Assembly: GCF_024171765.1 (NCBI RefSeq)
Contig: NZ_JAMTCI010000001.1
Coordinates: 1,155,137-1,219,136, forward strand
From: Williamsia deligens
Lineage (GTDB): Bacteria; Actinomycetota; Actinomycetes; Mycobacteriales; Mycobacteriaceae
DNA: 64,000 nucleotides
Direction of reading: 5' to 3'
Shown here: piece by piece, positions 16,407 through 47,521 of the stretch
Numbering within the stretch: the first letter of the stretch is position 1
Layout: every line of letters starts with the position of its first letter
The notes under the pieces: model-generated
The model's input: only the letters and a program-made list of their open reading frames with translations
Told to the model about the DNA's origin: nothing
The model's database searches: none
Position numbers and translations under genes: made by a program

Positions 16407-16569
16407 TTGCGGAAGGGTGCTTGTCCACACAGAGCGACTTGCGTCGTCCGGGCCACCAGCCGCCTCGAAGTTCGAGCCGACGGCTCCGAGGATCTAGAGC
16501 GCGCCGACACCGGCGATTCAGTCGCTCCGTATCGAGGAATTGGCGTAATTGGCAAGTAGTGTTTTGGAC

Positions 16570-17358
16570 ATGGCCCAGAACTCCCTGCGGGATCGTGTCC
16601 CCCCCGCCCAGGAGAAGGTGGTTCTTGCTCGAAGTGGCAACAAGTGCGCCTACCCCAATTGTGGTCAGGACCTAGCAATCGATCCGCAGGCCGACGGCGA
16701 CCGCCCAAAGGCGACAGGCAGGGTTGCGCACATCGCTGCGGCCAGTCCCGGCGGCCCTAGGTACGACCCGAGCATGACTCCGGAGGAGCGAGGGTCGGCG
16801 CAAAATCTCATCTATATGTGCGGCCCACATCACGACGCCGCTGACACACAACTCGAGTATCACACGCGCGCGTTTCTCGAGGAGGCGAAGCGCATTCACG
16901 AGACCGCGGTGGAGCGCGCCGTGCGGAACGCCCTTGGCGAGGTCACCTACGAAGAGCTTATGGTTGTGTGCACTGTAATCGCCAGTACATCGGCGGCACC
17001 CCAGAAGTTGGGTGTCGAGCTCGCCGTGCCCTTGCAGCAAAAGATCGAAGTGAACGAGCTGGGACCAGCGTCTGTGCAGCGGATCACTGATGGCCTGTCG
17101 CAGGCGGCGCGCGTCGAGGCGTTTATTGGCTTCCAAAACGCCGCGACACCCTCGTTCGGGCGCAGCCTGGTCGCGAGATTTAAGAGCGACTATTACGCCG
17201 CGCGCGCAGAGAATCTTGAGGCTGATGCGGTTTTCGACTACTTAGTCGACACTGCGATTGAGAACTCCGGTCCGCGAGATACCCCTAAGGTTCGAGCGGC
17301 CGCGCTCGCGGTAATCGCTTATCTGTTCGAGATCTGCGAGATCTTTGAACGTGAGTGA
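16570..17358 (+). CDS. ABC-3C system effector with HNH nuclease domain
   Basis: A 262-residue protein. The N-terminal HNH domain shows C26, C31, H54 (GRVAHI), N79 (QNLIYMC), C84 and H87/H88 in CGPHHD, all expected metal and catalytic positions. The C-terminal two thirds has no recognisable catalytic motif and fits the C-terminal adaptor domain of ABC-three-component systems, which ties an effector to the middle component and SMC-like ATPase. ATG 16570 is chosen; a TTG 21 bases upstream is weaker. The gene overlaps the next one by 8 nt. Expected role, from the family: nucleic-acid cleavage released on sensing of phage or plasmid DNA. Effector identity is inferred from order and motifs. Confidence 0.8.
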   Translation: MAQNSLRDRVPPAQEKVVLARSGNKCAYPNCGQDLAIDPQADGDRPKATGRVAHIAAASPGGPRYDPSMTPEERGSAQNLIYMCGPHHDAADTQLEYHTRAFLEEAKRIHETAVERAVRNALGEVTYEELMVVCTVIASTSAAPQKLGVELAVPLQQKIEVNELGPASVQRITDGLSQAARVEAFIGFQNAATPSFGRSLVARFKSDYYAARAENLEADAVFDYLVDTAIENSGPRDTPKVRAAALAVIAYLFEICEIFERE

Positions 17359-17581
17359 ATTTTTTCCCGACAAGTTCACGCCCCTAGACCGCACCATTGT
17401 TGGTGAAGCTGCCGCGCTGCTGGCTCTTCTGGGAGGCCGCGGCCTAAGCGTTGGGCAGCTGTATGTCGAACATCGGCAAACGTCAGTTGCCTCGACATAT
17501 GACGGTTTTGTTGCGGCGTTAACTCTTCTGTATGGCGCCGCTGTGGTCGATTACAAGGACGGGACGGTAAGGGAAAGCTAG
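17351..17581 (+). CDS. ABC-3C system middle component (MC6-like)
   Basis: A 76-residue protein starting at GTG (a TTG two codons earlier is possible). It reads as one compact winged-helix-like unit, with TIVGEAAALLALLGGRGLSV and then FVAALTLLYGAAVVDYKDG, matching the short middle components (type 6) that bridge effector and ATPase in ABC-3C systems. It overlaps the effector gene by 8 nt and its TAG stop shares one base with the ATPase GTG start. Such tight packing supports an obligate three-protein complex. Confidence 0.75.
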   Translation: MSEFFPDKFTPLDRTIVGEAAALLALLGGRGLSVGQLYVEHRQTSVASTYDGFVAALTLLYGAAVVDYKDGTVRES

Positions 17582-19302: not shown

Positions 19303-19417
19303 ATAAGCGTACCAACCGATGCTACGGCGAAGTCCTGCCGCCGCGGCGGGCAACTAAAAACCCTTTCTCAGGTCATTTGCAAGGAGGGGCTATCTTAGGC
19401 GGACAATTAAAAACATA

Positions 19418-19837
19418 GGTCGCGCCGATCAGATCCGATCGGCCCTCGACTATTACTTCACATTCCGGCTCAGCGACACCGCGGCCATCTAGGCCGGAAT
19501 CAAGGGCGCCCGCGACCGCCAGGACGCCGCGCTTTCTGTGCTAACAGCCGACTCCGCCCCGCGGTCCGTCCCGGACGTTGTCGAGGAAGGGGAGGGCGCC
19601 GATGGCGAGCGCCCGCGGCTGGACAAGCCGGTGACGCAGCGCGTCCGGAGCCGTGCTTTCGACCAGCTCACCGCGTTCTCGCTCATCGACGACGTGTCGT
19701 TGGCCGACGTGTTGAGGTCGGCAATTCACTGGTACATCGCCTACCGCGAAGACGACCCCGATTTGCGTCGAGCGCTGCGGCAGGCGAAGGCAAATTATGA
19801 AACCACAATGGCGGTGCTGGCGGCCGGGTCTGAGTAG
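19418..19837 (+). pseudogene. duplicated ribbon-helix-helix-like gene interrupted by TAG
   Basis: One reading frame runs from before 19430 to 19837 but is broken by TAG at 19490-19492. Before the stop it reads ADQIRSALDYYFTFRL; near the end it reads ADVLRSAIHWYIAYRE. The two are clearly related, so the protein was a tandem duplication of a small helical module resembling ribbon-helix-helix DNA-binding proteins. The remaining intact part can start at GTG 19538 and give 99 residues (VTQRVRSRAFDQLTAFSL). It follows the ABC-3C ATPase by about 120 bp. CAG to TAG is a one-base change. The 3' half may still be expressed. Confidence 0.5.
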
Positions 19838-20047
19838 CGAACGACGCGAAGACAAATCCCACTACGTATTCGATCGTCACTCGACCGCGGACGCGAGTTT
19901 CCCTGGCCGCTCGCGCAACAGCGGAATCCTGCTCGTCACCGCGGGCGCTGTCGTGGCGCGTGGCTCGCGGTACGGGCGGCCGTCCCCTATAGACGCTCCC
20001 GTGTATGACGGGTGCAGCGCTGTTCACCCGTGCGGCATGATGCCCGG

Positions 20048-20415
20048 ATGAGCTAGAACTCCGCGTTCTGGTGCGGTGGTGATGATTTCGACGCCGAGCA
20101 TGTCTATCACCAGCTGTCCGCCGTTGAACGAGTCACCGGTCGGAAGATCGTCGATCGATCGCAGACGCCCTCGAACAGCGCGACGTCACCCGCCTCGAAA
20201 CCGGGATGGTGATTCTCGGAGACTGGCAACCATCGGTCCAGGCCGACACCGAGTATGACCGCGCCAGCGAACAACACCGGCGCGAGGCCATCGCTGCGCT
20301 CGCCACCGAGCTCCCCATCTCCCCCGACACCGTCGAGGACGTCTACAAGCTCGCACGGCGCCGCCACCGGCATCCGCGTCTCACGCACTCACGGACCGAC
20401 AGGAACCCGCAATGA
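20048..20415 (+). pseudogene. broken accessory gene (nonsense at codon 3 plus frameshift)
   Basis: ATG AGC TAG at 20048-20056 is followed in frame by NSAFWCGGDDFDAEHVYHQL and SAVERVTGRKIVD. The protein-like sequence then continues in another frame as DALEQRDVTRLETGMVILGD to a stop at 20415, so a frameshift lies near 20150-20165 beside GATCGATCG. I do not recognise the family. An ATG at 20206 in the second frame could still give a 69-residue fragment. Its stop overlaps the next start (ATGA-like, 20412-20415), the usual spacing of an operon. Confidence 0.5.
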
Positions 20416-20647
20416 GCCACTCGCACAGCAACGTCGACATCGTGAAGATCGACGACACCATTACCGACGGCGAACCCAACACCTGGTACGTCGGGCCTAC
20501 GGCCCCACCCGCGCCGGCCAGGTCGCCTCCAGCCTCGATTCCAAGGCGCAGCGGCCACGGACATGCACCGTCATCCCCCTGTTTTCCGACGACGAATGCC
20601 TCGTCGTCCAGGACTACGGCCGCGCCACCACCAGATCCCTGCACTGA
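20412..20647 (+). pseudogene. small accessory gene with a frameshift
   Basis: The gene starts MSHSHSNVDIVKIDDTITDG and continues EPNTWYV; the coherent sequence then moves to another frame as RAYGPTRAGQVASSLDSKAQ and ends VVQDYGRATTRSLH with a stop at 20647. The frame change lies near 20487-20495. Without it the protein would be about 78 residues. Function unknown. A programmed frameshift is possible, but neighbouring genes carry similar lesions, which makes decay more likely. Confidence 0.5.
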
Positions 20648-20657
20648 CCACCTACAG

Positions 20658-20750
20658 AGCTACCGCGACCCCGGCGACTTCCCGGACCCGCGCCGCTCCC
20701 GGGCAACCACCACGAGCTGGTGGTGCGGTGGAGCCACTCACCCCACCACC
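20658..20750 (+). repeat. diverged direct repeat, copy 1
   Basis: The 53 nt at 20658-20710 (beginning AGCTACCGCGACCCCGGCGA) match about 44 of 53 positions of 22395-22447, and weaker similarity continues for roughly 40 nt more. Both copies lie just downstream of small accessory genes. The repeat may mark an old duplication or a conserved RNA/DNA element. Confidence 0.55.
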
Positions 20751-20937
20751 GGCGACGCGGCCCAGTCGCCCGGCGAGCACCCACGACAGACACCCGCGGT
20801 GCTGCGGTTGCTTCGTCGACGAGCGTCCAGCCATGATGAGCCGCCACCTTCGAGAGGCCCACGGTGGCAGGGGTGCCTTCGCAGTTCGGTGTACCCGACC
20901 GTCCGGGCTCGACCGGTTCCACGGCTGGACCGAGTAA

Positions 20938-21387
20938 CTACCAGGAACTGACTGGACGTGCGCGTGCCCAGAATGTTGCCCCGATGACTGTCAGCAGGAT
21001 TGCGCCTACGAGAAGGCCGACTCCGAGTGCGACGTGGGAAATGGCGACGTTCTGGCATTGATCCTGGAACATTTGCGCAGCGCGGGCGCCACTCTCGCTC
21101 GAGGTGTCCATTCCCGTGGTCACAACGGTGGGGTGGAACAATACGGTCACTGCGGACTGTCAGCTCGAGCCGACACCACACCACCCGTTGGGCTGTGCAG
21201 GGAGCGGCTCGAAACTTGTGATGACCGCCCAAACCAGCACTGTTACGGCGCTCACAATAAAGATGATGGCCGCAGGTCGCTGCAAACGGTTCCCGCTCGG
21301 CGGTGCCCACTGCTGCCCGTCCCACCATCGCGCAACGCCGTCCCCGCGGTCGTACCGGCCTGGCGGCGGCGGCGGCCCGTCTGGGTT
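20938..21387 (-). pseudogene. DUF2510 membrane protein split by TGA
   Basis: Starting at ATG 21387, the minus strand reads MNPDGPPPPPGRYDRGDGVA followed by RWWDGQQWAP, a DUF2510 repeat, then a membrane helix (PAAIIFIVSAVTVLVWAVI). TGA at 21160-21162 stops it. The same frame continues with QSAVTVLFHPTVVTTG and a second membrane helix (ALGVGLLVGAILLTVIGATF) to 20938. The uninterrupted product would be about 149 residues with two helices. Either a nonsense mutation or two separately translated halves (GTG at 21150 could restart) explains it. DUF2510 also occurs in the exonuclease fusion of this island. Confidence 0.6.
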
Positions 21388-21566
21388 CATGTCACGGACT
21401 TTACCGTCGTCCGACGACGTTCTGGCGCTACAGGTCGTAACCGTGATCGCCCTCCGCACCCTCTGAGAGGTGTTTTTCGTGTCTTCATAGCACGGCCTGG
21501 GCCCGGCGATTCCACACGAACCCAGTGCGCACCCCCCGGCCACGCATGCGTGCAGAATTACCCGTC

Positions 21567-22349
21567 ATGGTCAAACCGCACGCAGAGGCGCTAGCCGACA
21601 GAATCGTCGAGGGCAGATGGCCCAGTATCGAATGTCCCGTGTGTGAGTCCGGACATTTGGTGGCCCAAAACTTCGGTGAGGATGTCCCAGACTGGCTCGG
21701 AGATTCAGCAAGTTCGTCCTGGTCAGACTGGGGTGATCCCAGCGACATCACCGGAACGTTCGGAATTAGGTTTCGTTGCAACAACTCCGCGCGGTGCGGG
21801 GACTATGTCCACATCGTGGGCGACGCCGAGGTCGACTACAACCGGACGACACTGCTGAACCGCGATGACCCATTTGAAACCTACTTCACTGTCCGGTACG
21901 CCTACCCGCCCCTTCGCGTAGTTCAGCACCCGGCGGACACCCCAAAGGCCGTCCAGGCCGAGCTTCGCAACGTCGGGGCGCTTATCTGGTCGAATCCGGA
22001 CGCCGCAATGTGGACCCTGCGGAAGGCAGAGGAATTTTTACTAGATGATCAGGGGGTCGAGAAGCAGAAATCGAACGGCTCACCTATCCCGCTGAACGAT
22101 CGACTCAAGACCTTCGCACGCGAAAAGCCTGAGTATGCAGACGTATCCGAGCTACTGCTTGCCGTCAAATGGGTTGGCAACGACAGCACACATGGCACCA
22201 CCCGCAATGTCCGGGAGGTGCTAAAGATGGCCCGATTCGTCGAGCTGGCGCTAGAGAGTCTCTACTCGGAGTCCGATCGAGATGCCGCGTTGAGACACGC
22301 TCGAACAATCAACGAAAACCGCCGGTATACCGCCCCGCCCGCGCCGTAG
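21567..22349 (+). CDS. DUF4145-domain protein
   Basis: A protein of about 260 residues. The N-terminal part has ECPVCESG and a later CNNSARCG, suggesting zinc binding. The C-terminal half matches DUF4145: TPKAVQAELRNVG, AMWTLRKAEEFLLDDQGV, PLNDRLKTFAREKPEYADV and LLAVKWVGNDSTHGT. DUF4145 domains are frequent in restriction and anti-phage loci, alone or fused to effectors, but their activity is not established. ATGs at 21546 and 21567 are both possible. It is intact although surrounded by broken genes, which argues for selection or recent arrival. Confidence 0.75.
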   Translation: MVKPHAEALADRIVEGRWPSIECPVCESGHLVAQNFGEDVPDWLGDSASSSWSDWGDPSDITGTFGIRFRCNNSARCGDYVHIVGDAEVDYNRTTLLNRDDPFETYFTVRYAYPPLRVVQHPADTPKAVQAELRNVGALIWSNPDAAMWTLRKAEEFLLDDQGVEKQKSNGSPIPLNDRLKTFAREKPEYADVSELLLAVKWVGNDSTHGTTRNVREVLKMARFVELALESLYSESDRDAALRHARTINENRRYTAPPAP

Positions 22350-22797
22350 CTGTCGTCCCTCGTGAGCCTGGTCAGACCACTCCGGTAGCCCCATAGCTAC
22401 CGCGGCCCCGGTGACCTCCCGGACAAACGCCGCTCCCGCACAACCAGCTCCCAGCAGTGTTGCGGTTGAGCTACCCACCTACCGCGGTCGGCGCCGGTCG
22501 GCCGGGCCTGCCGGCCGGGGCGAGCCGGGCCATGCTGCGCATCCCCACTCGGAGCTCCCTGCGGTCGCACTGCCAGAAGAATTGTTGGTTTCCCTTCTGG
22601 CCGTCCGATTTTGACCGGCGTCGTCCGCCGCGCAACCCCCTGACGCTGACGCGCCCTGTCGGGTCGAGAAACTTTCAACCCCCTCACTGCTTTCGGTGAA
22701 CCTTTCCCGATCGCGGGGTTGTGCTCTGTCCTCCTATTCCGGTCTTTATCTCCCTTGCCAGAAGGGCAAAAGAATTGGCGGACAACAGGAGGCAGCC
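22350..22797. other. gene-free stretch with repeat remnant
   Basis: No convincing gene is present. The stretch holds copy 2 of the diverged repeat (22395-22485), followed by GC-rich sequence without codon structure and a short leader region ending in AACAGGAGGCAGCC ahead of the gene at 22798. Confidence 0.4.
22395..22485 (+). repeat. diverged direct repeat, copy 2
   Basis: Second copy of the repeat at 20658. It starts AGCTACCGCGGCCCCGGTGA; about 44 of the first 53 positions agree, with weaker similarity beyond. It lies 45 bp after the DUF4145 gene. Confidence 0.55.
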
Positions 22798-22971
22798 ATG
22801 ACCGGTATCGATCCCATCCAGGCCGCGCGCATCGCGTGGCGAAAGCTAGCAACCCCCACTGACGGGGCGTTCGACGTCCTGAGCGTTGACGACAAGGTCG
22901 CGCTGATGGAGCTGGGCCTGGACGACCCCGCCATCCGCGAGGCCGCGACCGTCACCGTCGAGATCGCCTGA
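22798..22971 (+). CDS. small hypothetical protein
   Basis: A 57-residue protein, MTGIDPIQAARIAWRKLATP then GAFDVLSVDDKVALMELGLD, with a strong ribosome site (AGGAGGCAGCC-ATG). It is helical with no known motif. It precedes, by 13 bp, the frameshifted gene at 22985 and the ParB-like remnant, so it probably belonged to a plasmid or conjugative-element operon. Confidence 0.6.
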   Translation: MTGIDPIQAARIAWRKLATPTDGAFDVLSVDDKVALMELGLDDPAIREAATVTVEIA

Positions 22972-22984
22972 GAGCAGGGACGAC

Positions 22985-23352
22985 ATGACCACCACCGACG
23001 TGCACCTCGACCCCGACGCCCTGACCGTGGACGGGCCGGATCTGACAGCGGTCGCGGTGATCGCCGCGACACGAGGGATCACAAAGCCCAGGCCCGCGAA
23101 CAGCTCCTCGCCGAATGGGACGAGCGGCTGGTGGCGGGGATCAACAGCGAGGCGCAGATGGCCACCGACTGGCTGGGCAAGGCCCGCGACGACACGAGCG
23201 CCGGGGACCTCGCCACCGCAGCCCTCGACATCATCGCCGACCAGGAGTGCCACGCCGCGATGGAGGTCTACCGCACCAAGCGCGAACAGTGCGCCGCGAT
23301 GCGCCGCATGAACCGCGAGCACTCCCAGCTCGGGGACCAGAACTACCGCTGA
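22985..23352 (+). pseudogene. plasmid-type hypothetical gene with a frameshift
   Basis: The gene starts MTTTDVHLDPDALTVDGPDL then TAVAVIAATR; from about 23070 the coherent sequence is in another frame, RDHKAQAREQLLAEWDERLV through GKARDDTSAGDLATAALDII to GDQNYR and a stop at 23352. Restoring one base gives a helical protein of about 121 residues. Function unknown. It lies between the small gene at 22798 and the ParB-like pseudogene. Confidence 0.6.
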
Positions 23353-23403
23353 CCCGATCCGGGTCCGTGGACAGCCCGACCGGGGTTGCCGCACAAACAA
23401 AAA

Positions 23404-23432
23404 CAACCAGCCATCCGCAAAATGGCTGGTTG
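23404..23432. terminator. 11-bp perfect hairpin with flanking A/T tract
   Basis: CAACCAGCCAT (23404-23414) and ATGGCTGGTTG (23422-23432) form a perfect 11-bp stem. On the plus strand an A-rich run (AAACAAAAA) precedes it, so on the minus strand the hairpin is followed by a T-rich run, the signature of an intrinsic terminator for leftward transcripts. It separates two plus-strand pseudogenes and could also shield the island from leftward transcription. Confidence 0.6.
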
Positions 23433-23460
23433 CTTCCCCACCAGATTAGGAGACACATCC

Positions 23461-24147
23461 GTGGGAATCAACCAGGACACCACCGCCCCCGCCGAGACCA
23501 CCGAAGCGGTCCTCGAACACGTCGACCCGACCACGCTGGTGGTCGACGCGAACGTGCGCACCGAGGCCACGTGGACCGGGCGTTCGTCGCGTCGATCACA
23601 GAGCGCGGGGTGATTCAGCCGGTGCTCGCGACCCGTGACAGCGCGGGCACGCTGCACGTGCGTGACGGGCAGCGCCGCACCCTGGCCGCACGCGAGGCCG
23701 AGCTGACGAGCATTCCGGTCTACGTGATCGCCACCCGCCGGTGACGACGAGGTGATCGAGCGGGTCACTGATCAGCTCATCGCCAACGAGCACCGCGCGG
23801 ACCTCACCACGACCCAGCGCGCCGCCGCGGCGCAGCAGCTCATCGAGTTGGGTGTGTCGCGCACCAATGTCGCCAAGGCGACCCCGCCTGGGTCGACCAA
23901 GGCTGTCGACGCCGCCGTGACCGTCGCAGGGTTCGAGGCCGCAATCACCGGCCTGGCGTGGGGTCTGACGATCGAGCAGGCCGCGATCGTCGCCGGATAC
24001 GAAGACGACGGTGACACCCAGGCGGTCGAGGCTCTGATGAGTGCCACGACCGAGGGCCGTTTCGACCACAAGGCGGCCGAGCTGGTCGCCACCGCCGATG
24101 ACCGGTCCGCGCCCCGTGCAGCAGCCGAACCGCTGATCGCCCATTAG
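23461..24147 (+). pseudogene. ParB-like partition gene with two frameshifts
   Basis: GTG at 23461 follows an AGGAGA site. The first frame reads VGINQDTTAPAETTEAVLEH then VDPTTLVVDANVRTEA; it shifts near 23570 to VASITERGVIQPVLATRDSA with LHVRDGQRRTLAAREAELTS, the ParB N-terminal nuclease-like core (GVIQPV...GQRR..AA). Near 23740 it shifts back to DDEVIERVTDQLIANEHRAD and TTTQRAAAAQQLIELGVSRT (the helix-turn-helix region) to the stop at 24147. With both shifts corrected the gene is about 229 codons. The 3' part could still make a fragment from GTG 23752. It indicates a plasmid or integrative-element origin. Confidence 0.7.
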
Positions 24148-38529: not shown

Positions 38530-38618
38530 GGAGGATTCGCCTAGTGGCCTATGGCGCTCGCCTGGAACGCGGGTTGGGTTAACAGCCCTCAGGGGTTCGA
38601 ATCCCCTATCCTCCGCCA
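38530..38618 (+). tRNA. tRNA-Ser (GGA anticodon)
   Basis: The acceptor stem GGAGGAT / ATCCTCC is perfect, followed by discriminator G and encoded CCA. The anticodon stem CTCGC/GCGGG encloses CTGGAAC, anticodon GGA. A long variable arm (TTGGGTTAACAGCCC region) and the T arm AGGGG-TTCGAAT-CCCCT confirm a class II serine tRNA. Its position after the aminotransferase agrees with the mycobacterial order. Confidence 0.97.
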
Positions 38619-38658: not shown

Positions 38659-38754
38659 GTCGTCTCGTGACCCCTCTGTGACCACCGTGGGTCTCGGCTG
38701 TGTCGGCCCGTGACGACCATGGCGGACACGCGTCGATCCAACAGAGGGGTTCAC

Positions 38755-39264
38755 ATGTCCGTCACCACACGTCGTATCGCCGCCACCGGCGCATTCACCC
38801 TGTTCGCCGGTGCGGGGATCGCATTCGCCGCGGCTCCCGCCTCCGCCGCACCTCTGGCCTGCCCGGCACTGCCGAACCAGACGTCGGTCACGGACAACTG
38901 CTCGGCGACCTCGTCACCCACCGGCACCTCGGCCGGCATCGGCGACACGAAGGGCGCCGCCTCCGCGAACGCCAAGGCGAACGGCCTGTCGTTGGCGATC
39001 GGACTCGGCGGCGGCAAGGCCACCTCGCAGGCGCAGAACTTCGCGGCGCCGGCGGCGATCGCCAACGGCAAGGGCGCCGTCGTCGACCTCACCGGCGTGA
39101 AGCCCGGCCTGGCGATCGGTATCGCGGGCCCCGGCGCCACCGTCACGGTGACCGGCACCTCCGCGGCCACCTGCACCGGCGGGCAGGGCTTCGCGGGTGA
39201 CTTCCAGACGTTCTCCGGATGCATCAACTTCGGCAACGGATCCATCCCGCTCGGCAACCGCTGA
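38755..39264 (+). CDS. small secreted protein
   Basis: A 169-residue protein with a clear Sec signal peptide: positively charged start, hydrophobic core (IAATGAFTLFAGAGIAFAAA) and a cleavage site near ASA-AP. The mature part is alanine/glycine/threonine rich with four cysteines (CPALPNQ, DNC, TCTGG, GCINF) and repeated AN-G-K segments. No enzyme motif. Similar short secreted proteins occur in mycolata; role unknown. ATG with AGAGGGG upstream. A strong hairpin follows. Confidence 0.75.
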   Translation: MSVTTRRIAATGAFTLFAGAGIAFAAAPASAAPLACPALPNQTSVTDNCSATSSPTGTSAGIGDTKGAASANAKANGLSLAIGLGGGKATSQAQNFAAPAAIANGKGAVVDLTGVKPGLAIGIAGPGATVTVTGTSAATCTGGQGFAGDFQTFSGCINFGNGSIPLGNR

Positions 39265-39316: not shown

Positions 39317-39425
39317 CATGTCCGTGGAAAGTTTTCCTCCCGCCGGGAACCTTTCGCGTCGTCGACCGCATCCAACGCTGTGACCGACCGGAGACCACTT
39401 CGGTCGCCGACACACGGAGGCACCG

Positions 39426-40184
39426 ATGACCACGCGCAACTACGACACCAACCACGACGGCCGCACCGATGTCCGCCTCACCGACACCAACGGTGACGGC
39501 CGCGCCGACATCGAGGAGAAGGACACGAACTTCGACGGGCGCGTCGACGTCAAGCTCACCGACACCGACGGGGACGGCCGGGCCGACATCAAGCAGACCG
39601 ACACCGACCACGACGGACGCTTCGACCGCACCGTCCGCGACACCGACCACGACGGACGGGCCGACAGCACGGGCGTCGGCGGGACGTCGGTGACGACCAC
39701 GTCGGACACGACCGGCGGCAGCGCGACGACCTCCGACTCGACCTCGTCCTCCAGCTCGAGCTCGTCCTCGTCCTCGTCCTCAGCCCACGCCGACAGGTAC
39801 GGGATCACCCACACCACCGACTCCCGCGGAGACGCCGTCGTCCTCATGGACACCGACCGCGACGGCCGCACCGACATCAAGCTCTGGGACACCGACCACG
39901 ACGGCAAGGCGGACGTCACCACCGCCGACACCGACCACGACGGCAAGGTCGACATCACCATGTGGGACACCGACCACGACGGCTACTACGACACCGCGCA
40001 GACCGATCGGGACGGCGACGGCACGGGTGACCACACCTTCTCGGTGCACATCGCCTCGTCGACGATGCCCGAGGACACCTCGTCGGACAGCTACTCCTCC
40101 GGCAGCGACAGCTACTCCGGGCACGACAGCTACTCGGGCAGCGACAGCCACAGCTCGGGCGCGTACGACCACTACGGGGCCTGA
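39426..40184 (+). CDS. acidic DTDxDGR-repeat protein (calcium-motif repeats)
   Basis: A 252-residue protein composed of tandem 11-residue repeats DT(D/N)xDGR(A/V/F)D, six near the N-terminus and six more after a serine run of more than a dozen residues (about 105-119). The pattern equals the calcium loops of thrombospondin type-3 and dockerin/EF-hand repeats. The C-terminus is a Ser/Gly/Tyr/Asp-rich tail (SDSYSGHDSYSGSDSHSSGA). There is no signal peptide or membrane segment, so secretion, if any, is non-classical. ATG with GGAGGCACCG upstream. Likely calcium-binding or adhesive; function inferred from repeat type only. Confidence 0.7.
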   Translation: MTTRNYDTNHDGRTDVRLTDTNGDGRADIEEKDTNFDGRVDVKLTDTDGDGRADIKQTDTDHDGRFDRTVRDTDHDGRADSTGVGGTSVTTTSDTTGGSATTSDSTSSSSSSSSSSSSSAHADRYGITHTTDSRGDAVVLMDTDRDGRTDIKLWDTDHDGKADVTTADTDHDGKVDITMWDTDHDGYYDTAQTDRDGDGTGDHTFSVHIASSTMPEDTSSDSYSSGSDSYSGHDSYSGSDSHSSGAYDHYGA

Positions 40185-40233: not shown

Positions 40234-41499
40234 TCAGTTCGCGTTCTGGTCGGCCTGGGTGAGGACGAGATATTGCGCCGAGATCTGTTGCGCCGCGGCT
40301 GTTGCCGATTCGTCGTTGCTCTCCCCGACGTACCGACCCACGACGACGACGCAGGAGTTCTGGGAGCCGGAGCTCGCGTCGCGGGTGAGACACGTGGCGA
40401 TGGGCAGTCCTCGTGGCGAGGGCGCCCTGGTCCACCCGGAGGCCAGGGACGACGTCACCAGGGTGTCGCGCAGACGCTCGGCGGCGGTCCCCGTCGACGC
40501 GCGGTACACCGAGGTCAGCCAGTAGGCGTTGTGCTCCGCGCCGGCCGCCGTCAGCGCGCGGAACACGGTGTCGGGGGATCCGCTGATGTGCGCGATGCCG
40601 CGAGGCCCGTACACCGCGCGATCGGTCCCGTTGACGGCGTCCGCCTTGGGGTTCGGGAGCGCGTAGATCAGGATGCGGTTGGCGTCGACCTGCGCAGACG
40701 GCGTCCGACCCCCGTTCTGGGAGCGGGTGGGCGTCTTGGGGAACCGGTCGAGCAACGGCACCTGGAGCGCCAGCGCCTTCTGGATCGCCGGCACCTGGCG
40801 GGGCTCCTCCGCCGGAGGTGTGGAGGACCAGGTGTAGACCACGTAGTCGTTGTGGGCGGTGAACGCCGACAACGACGTGTTGGGGTCCTTGTCCTGGAAC
40901 CGCACCCCGGGCACCCGGACGCCGACCGTGTCCGGTGCACCGGGGATCGTGACCCGCGTGGCCCCCGCCTGGCGCGCGAACGCCGTCGACATCTGTTGCG
41001 CGGCAGTGGTCGCCGTGGCGGGATCGGCGTACCGGATCACCATCTCGATGACCGTGCGGCTCGGATCGGTCTGCCGCAGGGTGGGCGTCGACGCCGCCGA
41101 GACGAACCCGGCGAGGAACTTCTCGTTCGCCGGCACGAACGCCGCCTCCTTGCCGACGACGGCGGAGATGTTGGCACGACTACGGATGATCTCCGTGGGA
41201 AGGACGGTCCTCGTGGCATCGCTGTCGATCTCGAAGGGCACCACCGTGAACTCCGCCATCCGCTGGCCCTCCACCGGGACGATGTCGTCACCGGTCACGG
41301 CGGCGAACGGCCGCGACGGGGTCTTCTGGTACGTCCCGGTGTCCAGGGCTGCGATGTCGACCTCGCCGGACGGGACGGCCGAGGACGAGGGCGCACCGGA
41401 GTCGGTGGCGCTGCCGGAGCGGCCGCCCTCCCCGCAGGCCCCGCACAGCAGTGCCGCCGCGGTCACCGCGCAGGCCAGCCGCACTACCCTCATCCGCAT
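40234..41499 (-). CDS. secreted lipoprotein (DUF7373-like)
   Basis: A 421-residue protein with a lipoprotein signal peptide, hydrophobic core CAVTAAALLCGAC with lipobox LCGAC, then a Ser/Gly linker. The mature part has two alpha/beta halves and resembles the DUF7373 lipoproteins of mycobacteria, whose role is unknown. ATG 41499 has AGGAGGCGAC upstream, so the longer frame to 41568 is not used. It is divergent from the dynamin/Hsp70 operon across 96 bp; shared control is possible. Confidence 0.75.
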   Translation of the reverse strand: MRMRVVRLACAVTAAALLCGACGEGGRSGSATDSGAPSSSAVPSGEVDIAALDTGTYQKTPSRPFAAVTGDDIVPVEGQRMAEFTVVPFEIDSDATRTVLPTEIIRSRANISAVVGKEAAFVPANEKFLAGFVSAASTPTLRQTDPSRTVIEMVIRYADPATATTAAQQMSTAFARQAGATRVTIPGAPDTVGVRVPGVRFQDKDPNTSLSAFTAHNDYVVYTWSSTPPAEEPRQVPAIQKALALQVPLLDRFPKTPTRSQNGGRTPSAQVDANRILIYALPNPKADAVNGTDRAVYGPRGIAHISGSPDTVFRALTAAGAEHNAYWLTSVYRASTGTAAERLRDTLVTSSLASGWTRAPSPRGLPIATCLTRDASSGSQNSCVVVVGRYVGESNDESATAAAQQISAQYLVLTQADQNAN

Positions 41500-41595
41500 G
41501 TCGCCTCCTGCCGACGTCGCCTCGGGGCGGGCCCCCGTCTCGGTGGTCGACGTCTGGTTCGCGGGCAACAGTCAATCAGATCGGTCAGGTGTCCG

Positions 41596-43422
41596 ATGAG
41601 TCATGAGTCCGCCACCGCCGCCCCCGACGGGGTCGAATCGGTGATCAGCGCGGCGTCGTCGGTGCTGCGCGCGTACCGCCTCGGGGACATCGCCGACCTG
41701 GCGGCCCGCAAGGCTGCGCGCGAGAGCCAGCGGCGCACCGTCGTCGTGGTCGGCGAGGTTGCCCGCGGCAAGAGTTCGCTGGTCAACGCCCTGGTGGGGC
41801 GGCGCGACCTGTGCCCTGTCGGGGTGGACGCCACCACCACCGTCGCGATCGGTGTGGTGCCGACGGACGACCCCCCGCTCGACGGCACCGCCGAACTGCT
41901 CTTCGCCGACCGTGCCGAGCAGGTGCCGTTGAGCACCCTGGCCGACTGGGCCACCACCGGCGGGTCCCACGTCACCGATCCCCGCACGCCGTCCCTCCCG
42001 ACCAGCGCCAGCATCCCCGTCACCGACACCGCCCTGCCCGGCGTCACGATCGTCGACACCCCGGGCGTCGGTGGGCTCGACCCGGCGATGGCCGCGCTGG
42101 CGACGCAGACGGCGCAGACCGCGTGCGTCGTCGTCGTCGTGTGCGACGCCTCGAGTCCCCTCACCGCTCCGGAGATGGCGTTCATCCGTGAGGCCGGCGC
42201 CTCGGTCGACTCGCTGATCGTCGCGGTGACCAAGACCGACAAGCACCTGCGCCGGTGGCGGGCCATCGTCGACGACGACCGCCGACTGCTCACCGAACAC
42301 CTGCAGCGCGACATCACCGTCGTCGGTGTGTCCAGCCTGCGGGCCTCGCTCGCCCGCGACATGCCGACCGGCCCCGATCGTGATCGCGCGGAGGAGGCGT
42401 CCGGCATCGTCGCCCTCCGATCGCTCGTCCTCGATCGTCTCGACGCCGCAGCGGGTCTGCCGGCCGCGGACGCTCTGCGCACCCTGCGCGAGGGGCTCGT
42501 CCGTGTCCGGACCCAGGTCTCCGCCGAGCGGGACGCCATCGACGGCCGCGGCGCGACGGTCCCCGACCTCACCGCGAAGCTCGACGAGCTCAACGCTTTC
42601 CGTGAGCAGAGCCGCGAGTGGGAGCAGTTCCTCGCCCGCGATCTCACCGAGCTGCGACAGAAGGCCATCGAGGACAGCGACCGGCGCCTGGAGGACATCC
42701 GCCGGCGGTGGACCGAGCGCATCACGAAGAGCGGCATCGCCGTGCTCCGTCGCAGCCCACAACAGTTCACCGCAGAGATGCAGTCGGAGCTGGAGGTGGC
42801 TCTGGCGGAGACGATCTCGGGATTCCTGCAGAGCCTGTACACGACGGTCGTCGAGCCGCGGTTCGCCTCCGACGCCGTGTGGGAGCAGATCTGCGGACGG
42901 ATCGTCGAGTCGATGGCCGGCCCCCGGATCGATGCCCCGCCCGTGGGCAGTCGCAAGCAGGGTCTCTTCGACCCGACGTTGCTGAACATGGGCGTGATGG
43001 GGTCGTCGGTGATCGGCGGGATGGTCGGCCTGTCCGCCGTCCTGGGCGTCGGCGCCGTCGTCGGGACCCTCTGGGTCGGCGTGAATCTCGGGTTCCGCGC
43101 GATGCGCACCGGGAAGTCGAACCTGCTGTCCTGGTTGCGGGAGACGCTCGCGACCACGAAGACGGTGACAGCCCGGCTGCTGGAGATGGCCATCGCGCAG
43201 GCCCGCCCCGAGATCGTCGTGCGCCACCGCGAGTACCTCCGGGTGTCCATCGAGGACCTGCAGCGTCAGATCACCGTCGCCCGGGAGTCCGCCACCGCCG
43301 ACGCCTCGCGTCGGGAGAAGGACCTGGCGCGCGTCACGTCCAACCTGGAGATCATCGGCAAGCGCCTCGTCGAGGTCGAGACAGCGCTCGGCGCGCTCGC
43401 ACCGGCGGGAGCGCTCCGATGA
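41596..43422 (+). CDS. dynamin-like GTPase (IniA-like)
   Basis: A 608-residue bacterial dynamin-like protein. P-loop GEVARGKSSLVNAL at about 52-65, G2 region ATTTVAIGVV, G3 DTPGVGG and G4 TKTD near 215 form a complete GTPase. A helical stalk follows, then a hydrophobic paddle (about 461-500: MGVMGSSVIGGMVGLSAVLG and VGAVVGTLWVGVNLGF) and a terminal coiled coil. Such proteins bind and remodel membranes; mycobacterial IniA responds to cell-wall drugs. It is first in a five-gene operon and overlaps the second GTPase by ATGA. The IniA link is by domain type, not by a search. Confidence 0.85.
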   Translation: MSHESATAAPDGVESVISAASSVLRAYRLGDIADLAARKAARESQRRTVVVVGEVARGKSSLVNALVGRRDLCPVGVDATTTVAIGVVPTDDPPLDGTAELLFADRAEQVPLSTLADWATTGGSHVTDPRTPSLPTSASIPVTDTALPGVTIVDTPGVGGLDPAMAALATQTAQTACVVVVVCDASSPLTAPEMAFIREAGASVDSLIVAVTKTDKHLRRWRAIVDDDRRLLTEHLQRDITVVGVSSLRASLARDMPTGPDRDRAEEASGIVALRSLVLDRLDAAAGLPAADALRTLREGLVRVRTQVSAERDAIDGRGATVPDLTAKLDELNAFREQSREWEQFLARDLTELRQKAIEDSDRRLEDIRRRWTERITKSGIAVLRRSPQQFTAEMQSELEVALAETISGFLQSLYTTVVEPRFASDAVWEQICGRIVESMAGPRIDAPPVGSRKQGLFDPTLLNMGVMGSSVIGGMVGLSAVLGVGAVVGTLWVGVNLGFRAMRTGKSNLLSWLRETLATTKTVTARLLEMAIAQARPEIVVRHREYLRVSIEDLQRQITVARESATADASRREKDLARVTSNLEIIGKRLVEVETALGALAPAGALR

Positions 43423-44876
43423 CCGGGGTCGGGATCGATCCCGTGCACGCTGCACTCGACCGTGGTCTGCACGCGCTCGCCGCCATCGGGGGCGATCTCG
43501 TCGAGCACGCGAACGCGATCGGCGCGACACTGTGGGCGCCACCGCGTCTCGTGGTGGTCGGCCGGCTGAAGGCGGGCAAGTCGACCCTGGTGAACGCGAT
43601 CGTCGGCGCACCGATCGCGGAGACCGCGGCCCTGGAGGCGACGAGGGTCGTCGCGGTGTACTCCGACGGTCAGCCGTCGCGCGCCGAGGTCGTCGCGCTG
43701 GACGGCACCCGCATGCCGGTCCCGTTGGGGCCCGGGCACGTCCGCGAACTGCCCCTGCCCGACGAGGAGATCGCCTACCTGCAGCGGTGGCTGCCGTCGG
43801 CCGCGATCCGCGACCTCACCTTCGTCGACACCCCCGGACTGGCGACGCTCACCGCACGGAACGACCGCGCGACCCGGCGGGTGCTCATCGACGGCGTGGA
43901 GCAGACGCGCGCTGCGTCGGTGGACGCCGACGCAGCCGTCTTCCTGTTCGACGCGACACCCCGCCAGGACGAGCTGGATTTCCTGCGGAAGCTGCCGCTG
44001 TCGCCGCTGAACACCATCGGGGTCCTCTCCCGCGCAGACGGTTTCGCCGAGGGCGCCCTCGGACGACGGGACCCGATGCAGCATGCCGCCGAACACGCCC
44101 GCCACCTCGCGTCCCGCCTCGCGGGGACCGTCGCGACGGTGGTGCCCGTCTCGGGACTGATGGCCCAGACCGCGCGGACGGGTGCGGTGTCGGAGGCGGA
44201 CGCGCGGGCGTTGGCCGCGCTCGACGGGCTGCCCGCCCTCGACCTGGTCGAACTGCTCGAGTCCGACGCCCCCGGGCCTGTGTCGCCGGAGACGCGGGAT
44301 CGACTGCTCGATCTCGTCGGCGAGTACGGGATGATCCACGGACGCACCGTCGCCGGCCGGGGCGCCGCCGCACTCACGGCCTGGCTCGATTCGACGTCGG
44401 GCATGGCCGAGCTCATGAGCGTCGTGCGGTCGTCGTTGCGGGAGTACGCGGTGCTGAACCGGGCCCGACGGGTACTCGACCAGATCGAGGCGTTGGCGTG
44501 GTCGCATCCCGACCGCGACCGCATCCGGGGAGTTGTCCACGAGGTGCGATCCGATCCGGTGATGCTGCGCGTCGCGCTGCTGCGGGACCTGCAGAACGTC
44601 CTCACCGCGGATCCGACAGCGCTCGTGGCCGACGATCTGCGGACGCTCCTGGTCGGCCGCACGCCCGCAGCACAGGTGGGGCTCTCGCCGGACGCCCCGG
44701 ACCACGAGGTACGCCGGGTGGCGCGTGACCGCGCCGCCGAGGTGGGTTCGCGAGCACTGGCCTCGGCGAGCGCCGCCGAGGACGCCGCGATCGTCGACGT
44801 GGTGCGCGCCTACACCGCCATCGCGAGCGGACCGGGCGCCGGCCCCGCACAGTCATACGGGAGGATGCAGCCATGA
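43419..44876 (+). CDS. dynamin-like GTPase (IniC-like)
   Basis: A 485-residue partner GTPase: P-loop GRLKAGKSTLVNAI near 48-61, G3 DTPGLAT, and a SRAD-like G4 (LSRADGF). It lacks the long hydrophobic paddle of its neighbour, which fits a two-subunit dynamin pair as in IniA/IniC. ATGA overlaps join it to both the previous and the next gene, so equal translation is expected. Confidence 0.82.
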   Translation: MTGVGIDPVHAALDRGLHALAAIGGDLVEHANAIGATLWAPPRLVVVGRLKAGKSTLVNAIVGAPIAETAALEATRVVAVYSDGQPSRAEVVALDGTRMPVPLGPGHVRELPLPDEEIAYLQRWLPSAAIRDLTFVDTPGLATLTARNDRATRRVLIDGVEQTRAASVDADAAVFLFDATPRQDELDFLRKLPLSPLNTIGVLSRADGFAEGALGRRDPMQHAAEHARHLASRLAGTVATVVPVSGLMAQTARTGAVSEADARALAALDGLPALDLVELLESDAPGPVSPETRDRLLDLVGEYGMIHGRTVAGRGAAALTAWLDSTSGMAELMSVVRSSLREYAVLNRARRVLDQIEALAWSHPDRDRIRGVVHEVRSDPVMLRVALLRDLQNVLTADPTALVADDLRTLLVGRTPAAQVGLSPDAPDHEVRRVARDRAAEVGSRALASASAAEDAAIVDVVRAYTAIASGPGAGPAQSYGRMQP

Positions 44877-46618
44877 GCACGGGGAACTGGCTCCTCAGCG
44901 TCGATTTCGGGACCTCCAACACGGCGGCCGCGCATTCGGCTGCGGTGAGCGGTGCGACAGAGACACTCCCGCTGTCGCACACCTCCAACGTGATGCCGTC
45001 GGGCGTGTTCGTCGCCGGACCGGACCGGATCGCCGTCGGCGACCATGCACTGGATGAGGCTCAGCGGTTCCCCGCCGGGTTCCTCCCCGCCCCCAAGAGG
45101 CTCGTCGGCCAGGGTTCGGTGTCGGTGAACGGCGTCGACCTGCCGACGTGGCAGCCGGTGGCGGCCATCTTCCGCACGGTGTTCTCGCGCGCCGCCGCGG
45201 TCCACGCGGGGCAGATGCCGGAGCGGCTGGTGCTCACCCATCCCGAGGCGTGGTCGCCCGCCCAGGTCGACGTCCTCCGGCAGGCCGCTGCGGCAGCGGG
45301 GATGGATCCGGCCGCGACGGTCACCGTCTCCGAACCGCGAGCTGCAGCAGCACATTACGCACGCGGCAACCGGGTCCCGCCGGGTGGCCGCATCGCGGTG
45401 TTCGATTTCGGTGGCGGCACACTCGACGTCGCCGTGCTCGGGACGGACACGGACGGCGGGTTCGAAGTGGTCGCGGCGCGGGGCGACAACGCGTTGGGCG
45501 GCAAGACACTCGACGCCACCGTGCGCAGCTGGGTGATCGAGCAGCTCGATGCGCGCGATCCCGACCTGTCCACCGCGCTGCGGTCGCCGGTGGCGCGACG
45601 CGCGCTGGACGAGTCGATCCGCCGTGCCAAGGAGTTCCTGTCGGAAGCGCCGTCGGCCACGATCAGCGTCTCGGGCGACGGCGTCGCCGAGACCCTCCAG
45701 ATCACGCGCGACGAGTTCGAGGAGTTGATCGCCGACCCCGTCGCGGCCGCGGTGCGGTTGGCGCGGGCGGTGTTCGACGACGCCGGCGTGTCCGCCGAGA
45801 ACCCGCTGTCCGCGATCTTCCTGACGGGCGGCACGTCCCGGGTTCCCCTCGTCCAGCGCGCCCTGCAGGATCTCGGTCCCGTCGCCACCCTCGACGATCC
45901 GAAGACCGTGGTCGCCCGCGGCGCGATCGCTGCCGTCACCACAGCGGGTCGTCAGCCGTCGATGCCTGCCGCCGGCGATCTGCTCACCCGGTGGGACACG
46001 GCGCCGACGCCGGCCGCGCGCGCCGACGACCAGCCCCAGCGTCGTGGCCGACGGCCGCTGATCGCTGCGGGTGTCGCGGCCGTGCTGGTCGTCGCCGCGG
46101 TGGTGACGGCGGTGGTCCTGACCCGCGGCGGTTCCGACGAGAACCCCTCGGCAGGGGGCGCATCACCGTCGGCGGCCGCGTCGTCGTCGGTCGCGTCGGC
46201 GACCACCGCGGAGCAGGTCCAGGCCGCACTCCCCGACCGCCTGCGGGGGTCGCTGCGCGGGTGCACGCAGAGTTCGGCGATGGTGGGCAGCCCGTTCGCG
46301 ATCACCTGCAGCATCGACTCGTCGAGCGGCCTGGTCACCGGCCTGCTCGACAGCAGGGCCCGCATCATCCTGGCCGTGGACGACGGCAACGCCCGCCGCG
46401 ACGTGGTGCGGATCCGTCAGGGCGCCGGGGCTTCTGCCGACGACGTGCTGGTGGAGAACACCGCACGGACAGCCGCGGCCACCATCAGTCAGGACCCCGG
46501 GTCGTCGGCGACGATCATGTACGCCGGCTCCGCCAACGGCATCCGGATGTTCCTCACCGGCGTGCTCGGTGCCACGGAGGGCAAGACCTTCCTCACCCGA
46601 TCGGAGTTGATCCAGTGA
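44873..46618 (+). CDS. membrane-anchored Hsp70-family protein
   Basis: A 581-residue protein whose first 370 residues are an actin/Hsp70 ATPase: phosphate-1 VDFGTSNTAAAH near residue 10, phosphate-2 VFDFGGGTLDVAVLG near 178 and adenosine motif IFLTGGTSRVPLV near 320. The substrate-binding domain of DnaK is absent; instead a basic stretch and one membrane helix (GVAAVLVVAAVVTAVVLT, about 398-415) lead to an exported C-terminal domain with two cysteines (RGCTQSS and ITCSIDS). It overlaps the IniC-like gene by ATGA. The arrangement suggests a chaperone-like ATPase coupling cytoplasm and envelope. Confidence 0.85.
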   Translation: MSTGNWLLSVDFGTSNTAAAHSAAVSGATETLPLSHTSNVMPSGVFVAGPDRIAVGDHALDEAQRFPAGFLPAPKRLVGQGSVSVNGVDLPTWQPVAAIFRTVFSRAAAVHAGQMPERLVLTHPEAWSPAQVDVLRQAAAAAGMDPAATVTVSEPRAAAAHYARGNRVPPGGRIAVFDFGGGTLDVAVLGTDTDGGFEVVAARGDNALGGKTLDATVRSWVIEQLDARDPDLSTALRSPVARRALDESIRRAKEFLSEAPSATISVSGDGVAETLQITRDEFEELIADPVAAAVRLARAVFDDAGVSAENPLSAIFLTGGTSRVPLVQRALQDLGPVATLDDPKTVVARGAIAAVTTAGRQPSMPAAGDLLTRWDTAPTPAARADDQPQRRGRRPLIAAGVAAVLVVAAVVTAVVLTRGGSDENPSAGGASPSAAASSSVASATTAEQVQAALPDRLRGSLRGCTQSSAMVGSPFAITCSIDSSSGLVTGLLDSRARIILAVDDGNARRDVVRIRQGAGASADDVLVENTARTAAATISQDPGSSATIMYAGSANGIRMFLTGVLGATEGKTFLTRSELIQ

Positions 46619-46986
46619 CCGATCCCGACGAACCGGTGCTGCGCGGCCTCGCGCTGACCGACACCGTCCCGGACGACGTGTGGACGCGAGCGCTGTCGGT
46701 CGCGTTCGATCCGGACGCCCACGCGGCGGACGCGTCGGTGGTGCCGACGATGGACGACGCCGGCGACCTGCCGGACACCGCCGACGACAGCGATGTCGGG
46801 ATCGTCCACCACGCCGGTCACGACGACGGCGCTCACGAGGGACACGACGCGATCGACCTGGGTGGCCACGAACACGACGGGGTCCACGACGACGAGACGC
46901 ATCACGACACCGGCGCGCACGACATCGATCACGGACACGACGACGGCCCCGGTCACGATCCCCATGATTCGGGGTGGCATGTCTGA
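46615..46986 (+). CDS. His/Asp-rich small protein
   Basis: A 123-residue protein starting at GTG 46615, overlapping the Hsp70 stop by GTGA. The first third (VLRGLALTDTVPDDVWTRAL) looks folded; the remainder is very rich in His, Asp and Gly (HDDGAHEGHDAIDLGGHEHD and HHDTGAHDIDHGHDDG), suggesting metal binding or a disordered tail. No known domain. Its stop overlaps the sigma-factor start by 8 nt. Position between an Hsp70 and an ECF sigma makes an adaptor or anti-sigma role conceivable, which is inference. Confidence 0.7.
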   Translation: MTDPDEPVLRGLALTDTVPDDVWTRALSVAFDPDAHAADASVVPTMDDAGDLPDTADDSDVGIVHHAGHDDGAHEGHDAIDLGGHEHDGVHDDETHHDTGAHDIDHGHDDGPGHDPHDSGWHV

Positions 46987-47521
46987 CGCGGCGACGCTGA
47001 TGGCCGCCCGGACCGGCGACCAGCAGGCGTTCGCGCAGTTGGTCGGCGAGCACCGCAACCACATCTGGGCGGTGTGTGTGTCGATCACGGGGAACGCGCA
47101 GGACGCCGAGGACGCGCTGCAGGAGACGTTGATCTCGGCGTGGCAGCACCTCGACCGCTTCCGGGGTGACGCGAAGTTCGGGACGTGGCTGCACCGCATC
47201 GCCGCGAACTGCGCACTCGCCGTGGTGCGGCGGCGGAAACCGAACACCGACACCGTCGACTTCACCGACACGGAGCGTCCCGTCGTCCTGGTCGACACCG
47301 CCCCCGCTGTCGACGAGCGCGTCGCGCGTGAGGATCAGGTGCGGGCTGCGCTGGCGACGCTGTCGGAGGACTTCCGCGAGGCGATCGTGTTGCGGGAGTT
47401 CGGCGATCTCAGTTACGAGGACATCGCGACCCACCAGGGGGTGGGTGTGCAGACTGTTCGGTCGCGGCTCAATCGTGCGCGCAGCCAACTCGCCGCGGCG
47501 CTCGCGACGTCCGACGCATAG
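46979..47521 (+). CDS. ECF-type sigma factor
   Basis: A 180-residue sigma-70 family protein with region 2 (DAEDALQETLISAWQHLDRF then FGTWLHRIAANCAL) and region 4 (FGDLSYEDIATHQGVGVQTV then RSRLNRARSQL). It starts at ATG 46979, 8 nt before the stop of the His/Asp-rich gene, and ends the five-gene operon. No typical zinc anti-sigma gene follows. It may direct the operon itself or an envelope-stress regulon. Confidence 0.9.
   Translation: MSDAATLMAARTGDQQAFAQLVGEHRNHIWAVCVSITGNAQDAEDALQETLISAWQHLDRFRGDAKFGTWLHRIAANCALAVVRRRKPNTDTVDFTDTERPVVLVDTAPAVDERVAREDQVRAALATLSEDFREAIVLREFGDLSYEDIATHQGVGVQTVRSRLNRARSQLAAALATSDA

Follow-up and report, generated by a model that had tools for sequence, protein, structure and literature searches.

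A predicted actinobacterial membrane-protection module of two dynamins, an anchored Hsp70-like ATPase and an ECF sigma factor in Williamsia deligens

The literature nearest to the locus described here consists of papers on the mycobacterial iniBAC operon and of an account of GTPase/HSP70 conflict systems (passages of PMC7159879). According to passages of PMC6715688, the dynamin IniA performs GTP-dependent membrane fission in vitro, where it cuts membrane tubes, and is linked to tolerance of cell-wall drugs. IniR (passages of PMC5760070) and HpoR (passages of PMC13413693) have each been reported as regulators of iniBAC, and the same portions of the HpoR paper describe an effect of iniBAC on envelope permeability, which the abstract gives as a decrease and one results passage reads as an increase. 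Here we analyze a 64,000-nucleotide stretch of the Williamsia deligens genome (contig NZ_JAMTCI010000001.1, positions 1,155,137 to 1,219,136; hereafter, the window) in which positions 41596-47521 encode two dynamin-like GTPases, a membrane-anchored Hsp70-like ATPase, a small acidic protein termed HisR, and an extracytoplasmic function (ECF) sigma factor. Comparison of related loci shows that the dynamin pair and the anchored Hsp70-like ATPase are kept together with a protein of DxDxDG repeats and with ECF sigma factors of a single clade. We interpret the locus, with somewhat better than even confidence, as the Williamsia form of an actinobacterial membrane-protection module that has its own ECF sigma factor and would act in envelope stress. 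Because of IniA's link to fission and drug tolerance and the effect of iniBAC on permeability, the simplest interpretation is that the module maintains the membrane when the envelope is stressed.

An operon headed by an IniA-like dynamin

The sequence-only reading of this stretch had proposed a five-gene operon, and we confirm all five genes at 41596-47521 together with the junctions it described: ATGA, ATGA, and GTGA overlaps followed by an 8-nt overlap. The first gene (41596..43422, +) encodes a 608-residue, IniA-like GTPase (dynamin 1; Dynamin_N, E 2e-16). The second (43419..44876, +) encodes a 485-residue dynamin-like GTPase (dynamin 2; Dynamin_N, E 5e-10) and occupies the same position as IniC. 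Each protein has P-loop and DTPG motifs, while TKTD is present in dynamin 1 and SRAD is found at the same place in dynamin 2. Dynamin 1 also contains a hydrophobic stretch near residue 472, and dynamin 2 has no strong one. The only solved relative of both proteins at E ≤0.001 is mycobacterial IniA (6j72), which dynamin 1 matches at E 4e-15 over query residues 19-453 and dynamin 2 at E 8e-7.

To compare related loci, we searched named genomes with an alignment of dynamin 1, obtained 80 loci, and mapped them in six frames using profile hidden Markov models built from loci fetched earlier. The counts below refer to 56 of these (at least 12 kb, both dynamins present by thresholds), the other 24 having been dropped as short or as lacking one dynamin. 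Dynamin 2 is a same-strand neighbor of dynamin 1, no more than 2.6 kb away, in 46 of the 56 loci. An ECF sigma factor of one clade is present in 43, alongside the repeat protein (39 loci), Hsp70 (37), HisR (20), a C39 peptidase (17), a DUF7373 lipoprotein (16), and GrpE (7). The 13 loci without a detected sigma factor contain Hsp70 (8), C39 (3), the lipoprotein (3), the repeat protein (2), GrpE (2), and HisR (1); three of them (L055, L061, and L077) may be truncated or have the sigma gene off the stretch, and both loci with a repeat protein fall among these three. By Fisher tests, which ignore relatedness, the repeat protein is tied to the sigma factor (39/43 versus 2/13, p 6e-7) and HisR is weakly so (p 0.02). 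Sigma-bearing loci occur in at least 15 named genera: Williamsia, Rhodococcus, Prescottella, Gordonia, Corynebacterium, Dietzia, Smaragdicoccus, Speluncibacter, Actinoplanes, Jidongwangia, Nocardioides, Aeromicrobium, Isoptericola, Gulosibacter, and Leifsonia. These comparative facts make a co-regulated module likely.

The earlier expectation that the gene order would extend beyond this strain is borne out within the genus, where six of seven other genomes keep it (one with dynamin 1 cut by a contig end), as judged by searching relatives, by mapping the genes of the stretches retrieved, and by searching for dynamin 2; elsewhere, the gene set is kept but rearranged. The seventh genome (G002) yields no dynamin 2 match at E 1e-70, and its Hsp70 matches are DnaK-level only. 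In several of the six genomes, Hsp70 and HisR are separated by a gap that contains another tiny open reading frame (ORF), and the tight GTGA overlap is therefore not general. Conservation of gene set and order leads us to reject a chance neighborhood, and the variation between genera likewise rejects the five-gene order as universal.

The dynamin pair is common to this locus and the iniBAC operon (IniA, IniC, and IniB), and dynamin 1 is homologous to and resembles IniA. The locus could on these grounds be an ordinary iniBAC-type locus that serves tolerance to cell-wall drugs and has an unrelated sigma gene downstream by accident. The only iniBAC-like locus that we mapped, in Mycobacterium sp. 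M26 (L111), agrees with this explanation in having its two dynamins after a protein that we take to be IniB-like. Unlike the module, however, L111 has no linked sigma factor of the clade and no repeat protein, and its only Hsp70 match is weak, about 2 kb upstream, and on the opposite strand. We found no IniB-type protein directly upstream of the dynamins here, and Pfam and NCBIfam report no IniB family for the lipoprotein and the repeat protein encoded there (the presence of a model in these libraries being unchecked). In 43 of 56 loci, the dynamins have the sigma factor nearby; it belongs to one clade, and the promoter motif described below goes with it. The accident explanation is already largely refuted by conservation, and we consider it improbable. 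No linked ECF sigma factor appears in the passages of PMC5760070 and PMC13413693 that deal with iniBAC.

One sigma clade and its predicted regulon

The fifth gene of the operon (46979..47521, +) encodes a 180-residue, ordinary two-domain ECF sigma factor with sigma-70 regions 2 and 4 only (Sigma70_r2, 7e-18; r4_2, 1e-14), the architecture of group 4 by Pfam and NCBIfam; it may already have a group in the ECF classification. A quick FastTree phylogeny, midpoint rooted with few outgroups, places 46 module-linked sigma factors (from the 43 loci, two shorter loci, and the window) in one clade, apart from the nine other ECFs of this genome and from three stray ECFs of the fetched loci. Ten ECF matches in this 4.4-Mb genome correspond to a chance expectation of ~0.05 per 20 kb. 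The earlier remark that no anti-sigma factor is visible agrees with our Pfam and NCBIfam searches, in which no adjacent membrane or zinc-binding (HxxxCxxC) anti-sigma factor was recognized.

Two boxes of the form GGGAAC-(16/17)-GCATC, first noticed by eye in upstream regions, recur in the same form before most of the repeat-protein genes printed. The pattern GGGAAC[ACT][TA]N12-15GC[AC]TC has 103 matches, versus 2 for the reversed pattern, in 1.46 Mb from 78 loci, a set in which some genomes are represented twice. The strict motif occurs at 69 sites in 28 of the 43 sigma loci, versus a mean of 1.9 and a maximum of 11 for 40 scrambled versions. Sixty-three of the 69 sites lie no more than 700 bp before a module domain, and the box spacing is 16 (47 sites), 17 (21), or 14 (1). 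The sites precede the repeat protein (29), the lipoprotein (9), Hsp70 (7), dynamin 1 (6), HisR (5), C39 (3), the sigma factor (2), and GrpE (2). Four of the 13 loci without a detected sigma factor also have sites (8 in total), and three of these four loci may lack the sigma factor only through truncation or because it is located elsewhere. Genome-wide, a related pattern gives 124 sites versus 53 for the reversed control, summed over 16 genomes with the sigma gene at the module locus, and 7 versus 14, summed over four genomes with a sigma-less dynamin locus.

In the genome of W. deligens itself, the strict form has two matches, one of them ahead of the repeat-protein gene, and its reversed control has none; a looser form has 17 matches (control, 8). 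Within the window, the looser pattern is not significant alone (1 found, 1.26 expected), and the matrix score of the site at 39345..39372 (+) is 30.6, the next best being 13.2. This predicted promoter of the module sigma factor, GGGAACCTTTCGCGTCGTCGACCGCATC, lies 53 bp upstream of the repeat-protein gene and gains support from its conservation before homologous genes elsewhere; the neighboring repeat-protein gene is the predicted sigma target in this strain. The second strict site (G000:C4:12235-12262) precedes a gene for a 437-residue, Ser-rich, apparently secreted protein. In several relatives and on plasmid pLPS8, the motif also stands before HisR-sigma or operon genes, and in the loci of R. 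opacus and R. koreensis more than one module gene is preceded by a site. On pLPS8 of R. opacus, which was fetched after the motif was fixed, though it is close to locus L056, a site precedes each of the lipoprotein, Hsp70, repeat, and HisR-sigma genes.

To look beyond the module, we examined 13 stretches that surround selected sites; 10 of these lie away from the main module loci and were chosen for their closeness to the strict motif. The genes that follow these extra-module sites include those for a DUF7373 lipoprotein (L159), a paralog of the repeat protein (L162), proteins of the CD225/IFITM family (L159, Pfam E 1e-15; L166, E 3e-11), and Gly-rich or secreted proteins (L158, L163, L164, and L167); no telling gene follows the site in L160, L161, or L165. 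Three Williamsia genomes carry six CD225 genes, and in each genome one paralog follows a site and the other does not. CD225 was rejected as a member of the regulon in this strain, as it has no match in G000 and was found in three of the nine genomes searched. Where dynamin and IFITM-family (CD225) proteins would share one sigma regulon, in some species but not in this strain, the arrangement could, on a rather unlikely reading, be a bacterial parallel to Mx and IFITM. Those two proteins form an interferon-induced pair.

The module is patchily distributed. Of 121 genomes of the family, 37 have a dynamin 2 match of E 1e-70 or better, as do 15 of 31 genera, and dynamin 1 is present on 33 plasmid records, in one case adjoining a type I restriction system. 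Public annotation of the R. opacus plasmid gives the order dynamin, GTPase, Hsp70, hypothetical, C39 peptidase, hypothetical, sigma-70; in two Gordonia plasmids, genes for dynamin, GTPase, and Hsp70 are followed by MspA porin genes, a repeat protein, and a HisR-sigma pair. In these Gordonia plasmids (pG135, L177; pGKT3, L178), the MspA-family porin genes thus sit within the dynamin-Hsp70-sigma neighborhood. The record of locus L073 (NZ_JNYV01000002.1), titled Kitasatospora arboriphila, is nearly identical in gene content and order to Williamsia muralis loci L072 and L074; its title may be wrong or the assembly contaminated.

Such a distribution fits an anti-phage or anti-plasmid conflict system in which the dynamins, Hsp70, IFITM-family proteins, and, in relatives, the peptidase would prevent entry or bring about cell death once phage DNA injection or conjugation breaches the membrane. 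The plasmid records, the neighboring restriction system, and weak PADLOC matches of the dynamins to LeoA and LeoBC point the same way, as do the published predicted conflict systems with Hsp70, GrpE, and GTPase genes described in passages of PMC7159879. Against it, Hsp70, HisR, and the sigma factor match no PADLOC family, no toxin domain was recognized among the module proteins scanned, and the module is retained by six of the seven other same-genus genomes; the dedicated ECF regulon and the DUF7373 lipoproteins look more like envelope upkeep. We consider a defense role doubtful, although the patchy distribution and the plasmid records keep it in contention.

Paired actinobacterial dynamins also bring to mind a cell-division or development module, since the DynA/DynB pair of Streptomyces stabilizes FtsZ rings. 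The module is accessory and plasmid-borne in many species, however, and has a dedicated stress-type sigma factor, and a division role seems very improbable to us.

The Hsp70-like ATPase, HisR, and the flanking genes

The third gene (44873..46618, +) encodes the 581-residue, membrane-anchored Hsp70-like ATPase (HSP70, E 2e-31). Its ATPase domain spans approximately residues 1-360 and contains the nucleotide-binding phosphate motifs DFGTSN, DFGGGT, and GGTSR. Instead of a DnaK-type C-terminal peptide-binding domain, this part is followed by one strong hydrophobic stretch (residues 397-415) and then a different region. The sequence-only claim that a peptide-binding domain is missing holds at this level, as the Pfam alignment to HSP70 runs from position 115 to 368 of the 599-position profile, within the ATPase part. 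Among 25 sequences, Cys 464 of the C-terminal region is invariant and Cys 479 is present in at least 90%. The predicted topology probably puts the C-terminal domain outside the membrane. In Smaragdicoccus (L097), the Hsp70 C-terminus is fused to a DUF7373 domain pair, the same pair as in the divergent lipoprotein, which ties the lipoprotein to Hsp70. The anchored Hsp70 is our best candidate for the sensor; in one genus, a DUF7373 domain makes up its putative outer part.

If the dynamins have an ATP-driven partner, Hsp70, together with GrpE in some relatives, is also the strongest candidate. GrpE lies between the dynamins in some relatives (L063 and L101), where it is confirmed by Pfam. More distant dynamin pairs in Actinophytocola (L104), Haloechinothrix (L105), Arthrobacter (L106), and Streptomyces (L117) have an Hsp70 of the module type within the stretch and neither the clade sigma factor nor the repeat protein; the tie between Hsp70 and dynamins may therefore be older than the tie to the sigma factor.

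The fourth gene (46615..46986, +) has a GTG start and encodes HisR, an acidic and here His-rich protein of 123 residues (17 His, 29 Asp, and no Cys) with the N-terminal motif VPDDVWTRALSVAFDPDAHAADASVVP. It matches no family in the Pfam, NCBIfam, PADLOC, or PHROGs libraries. Histidine richness, which had been taken as the trait of this protein, does not survive comparison: among full-length relatives, the number of histidines ranges from 1 (L053) to 18 (L069). The relatives instead have in common a short N-terminal motif (like PDDVWxxALxxALDPDTPxxDxxLVP) followed by an acidic body. Cysteine is absent in 23 of 26 listed rows of relatives, and the same-genus homologs contain no hydrophobic stretch. 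We reject HisR as a usual zinc anti-sigma factor, as it has no cysteine here and its histidine number is not conserved. A profile trained mostly on Williamsia detects HisR in 20 of the 43 sigma loci, in 16 of them no more than 1.2 kb from the sigma gene and on the same strand.

Two Corynebacterium loci (L083 and L084) and one from Gordonia (L086) have acidic ORFs of 132-150 residues, unmatched by this profile, directly before the sigma gene; in L083 and L084, a motif site precedes the ORF. An acidic small protein beside the sigma factor may thus be more general than the count of 20 in 43 suggests. In L031 (G007), L032 (G003), and L033 (G006), a second tiny ORF (~40-55 residues) between Hsp70 and HisR contains a motif like the HisR N-terminus alone, without the His/Asp-rich tail, and looks like a duplicated docking segment. 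A 282-residue protein in L046 (G027; 18314-19162) has a HisR-like start, seen by eye, followed by DxDxDG repeats, a hint of a functional relationship between HisR and the repeat protein.

Directly upstream of the operon, the repeat-protein gene and a divergent DUF7373 lipoprotein gene form part of the same conserved neighborhood. The repeat protein (called TSP; 39426..40184, +; 252 residues) has 11 DT[DN]xDGxxD-type repeats in two blocks of 6 and 5 with a 13-residue period. No signal peptide was seen by eye, and no Pfam family scored above cut-off. Its loops resemble those of thrombospondin type 3, and all 11 have the DxDxDG spelling of the calcium-binding type, from which we presume a link to calcium. 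The lipoprotein (40234..41568, −; PF24088, E 3e-42; PF24092, E 4e-23) is listed with a start at 41568, and a more likely start at 41499 gives it a lipoprotein-like signal, MRMRVVRLACAVTAAALLCGACG, recognized by eye.

In Rhodococcus, the repeat-protein and HisR genes flank a gene for a C39-type peptidase, and in Aeromicrobium such a peptidase forms a fusion with DxDxDG repeats. The peptidase was rejected as a part of the system in this strain, since PF13529 finds none in the genome; divergent ones could escape Pfam, and the C39 of the related locus L093 scores 19.8, below the cut-off of 24. Farther upstream, a tRNA-Ser (GGA) gene (38530-38618) and a gene for a DUF6764 protein (38710-39264) sit between an Rv3722c-type aminotransferase gene and the repeat-protein gene; in L034 (G004), a DUF6764-like gene is located after the sigma gene instead. 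Over window positions 12000-24000, the G+C content drops to 0.60-0.66, compared with ~0.70 over most of the remainder, and this is possibly a mobile stretch.

A proposed envelope-stress response and its described relatives

In the membrane-protection reading that we favor, the outer part of Hsp70 and the DUF7373 lipoprotein would detect envelope damage, and the signal would free or activate the sigma factor, perhaps through Hsp70 or the acidic HisR. The sigma factor would then raise the repeat protein, its most frequent predicted target and the only clear one in the window, and in relatives also the lipoprotein, Hsp70, the dynamins, the HisR-sigma operon, and some IFITM-family proteins. The dynamin pair would reshape or cut damaged membrane, as IniA does in vitro, with Hsp70 (and GrpE in some relatives) driving dynamin assembly or disassembly, and the repeat protein may sense calcium leaking in. 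A more specific and rather unlikely version is a membrane-wound response, in which calcium entering through a breached envelope would be caught by the cytosolic repeat protein, which would direct the Hsp70-worked dynamins to excise the wound and reseal it; the same action may also stop phage or plasmid entry.

Several observations weigh against the membrane-protection reading. The loci in which the motif was counted are those in which it had first been noticed by eye; they were themselves chosen by dynamin similarity and are not independent. The strict form is absent from 15 of the 43 sigma loci, among which are eight from the W. muralis clade and three from Gordonia; those of these two groups that were printed show only variant sites by eye. 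Among the 16 sigma genomes, genome-wide counts do not exceed the control in G041 (2 to 6), G053 (1 to 5), or G054 (4 to 4) and show nothing clear in G051 (7 versus 6), and the Gordonia plasmids carry one site (pG135) and none (pGKT3). The operon in the window has no motif site of its own, the only strong site there preceding the repeat-protein gene. Partners other than the repeat protein and HisR are not significantly more common in sigma loci (Hsp70, p 0.1; C39, 0.34; lipoprotein, 0.51; GrpE, 1), and the patchy, plasmid-borne distribution would also suit a defense role. Of the new system proposed in the sequence-only reading, we retain a unit of genes that extends beyond the strain, a dedicated ECF sigma factor with a promoter-like motif, and an IniA-like dynamin 1; the exact order holds in this genus only.

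Should the membrane-protection reading be correct, bacterial dynamins, whose cellular job is mostly open, would gain a dedicated regulator, an ATPase partner, and testable co-workers, and an ECF sigma factor would have a predicted promoter and target genes known before its signal. A set of ‘hypothetical’ genes that recurs in Rhodococcus, Gordonia, and Williamsia, and on some plasmids of these genera, would also gain a context. Should the co-regulation of IFITM-family proteins and dynamins hold, bacterial membrane stress would be linked to two animal antiviral protein families.

Among described systems, the LeoABC bacterial dynamins are distantly related to those of the module: the PADLOC LeoBC profile matches dynamin 1 along most of its length (E 2e-11), and LeoA matches at E 2e-11. 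The LeoABC locus is not known to include an Hsp70 or a sigma factor. The GTPase-centric GAP1-N2 conflict systems, as described in passages of PMC7159879, have GTPase genes beside HSP70, GrpE, and an Hsp70 without a peptide-binding domain, and also FNIII and GAP1 parts; a word search of the main text finds neither ‘dynamin’ nor ‘sigma factor’. Word searches likewise find no dynamin or Hsp70 in a PSP survey (PMC11237479) and no occurrence of dynamin, Hsp70, DnaK, chaperone, or GTPase in a review of non-canonical ECFs (PMC8999054). Among the matches listed, titles and the starts of abstracts contain no description of a dynamin-Hsp70-ECF module, a search whose scope leaves most subscription literature outside. 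With ECF/anti-sigma envelope-stress circuits, such as those of actinobacterial SigE, SigM, and SigD, the module sigma factor has regions 2 and 4 in common, and in module relatives the likeness extends to a GGGAAC-type -35 box before the sigma factor's own neighbors. It differs from these circuits in its usual partners, which are dynamins, an Hsp70-like ATPase, and the repeat protein.

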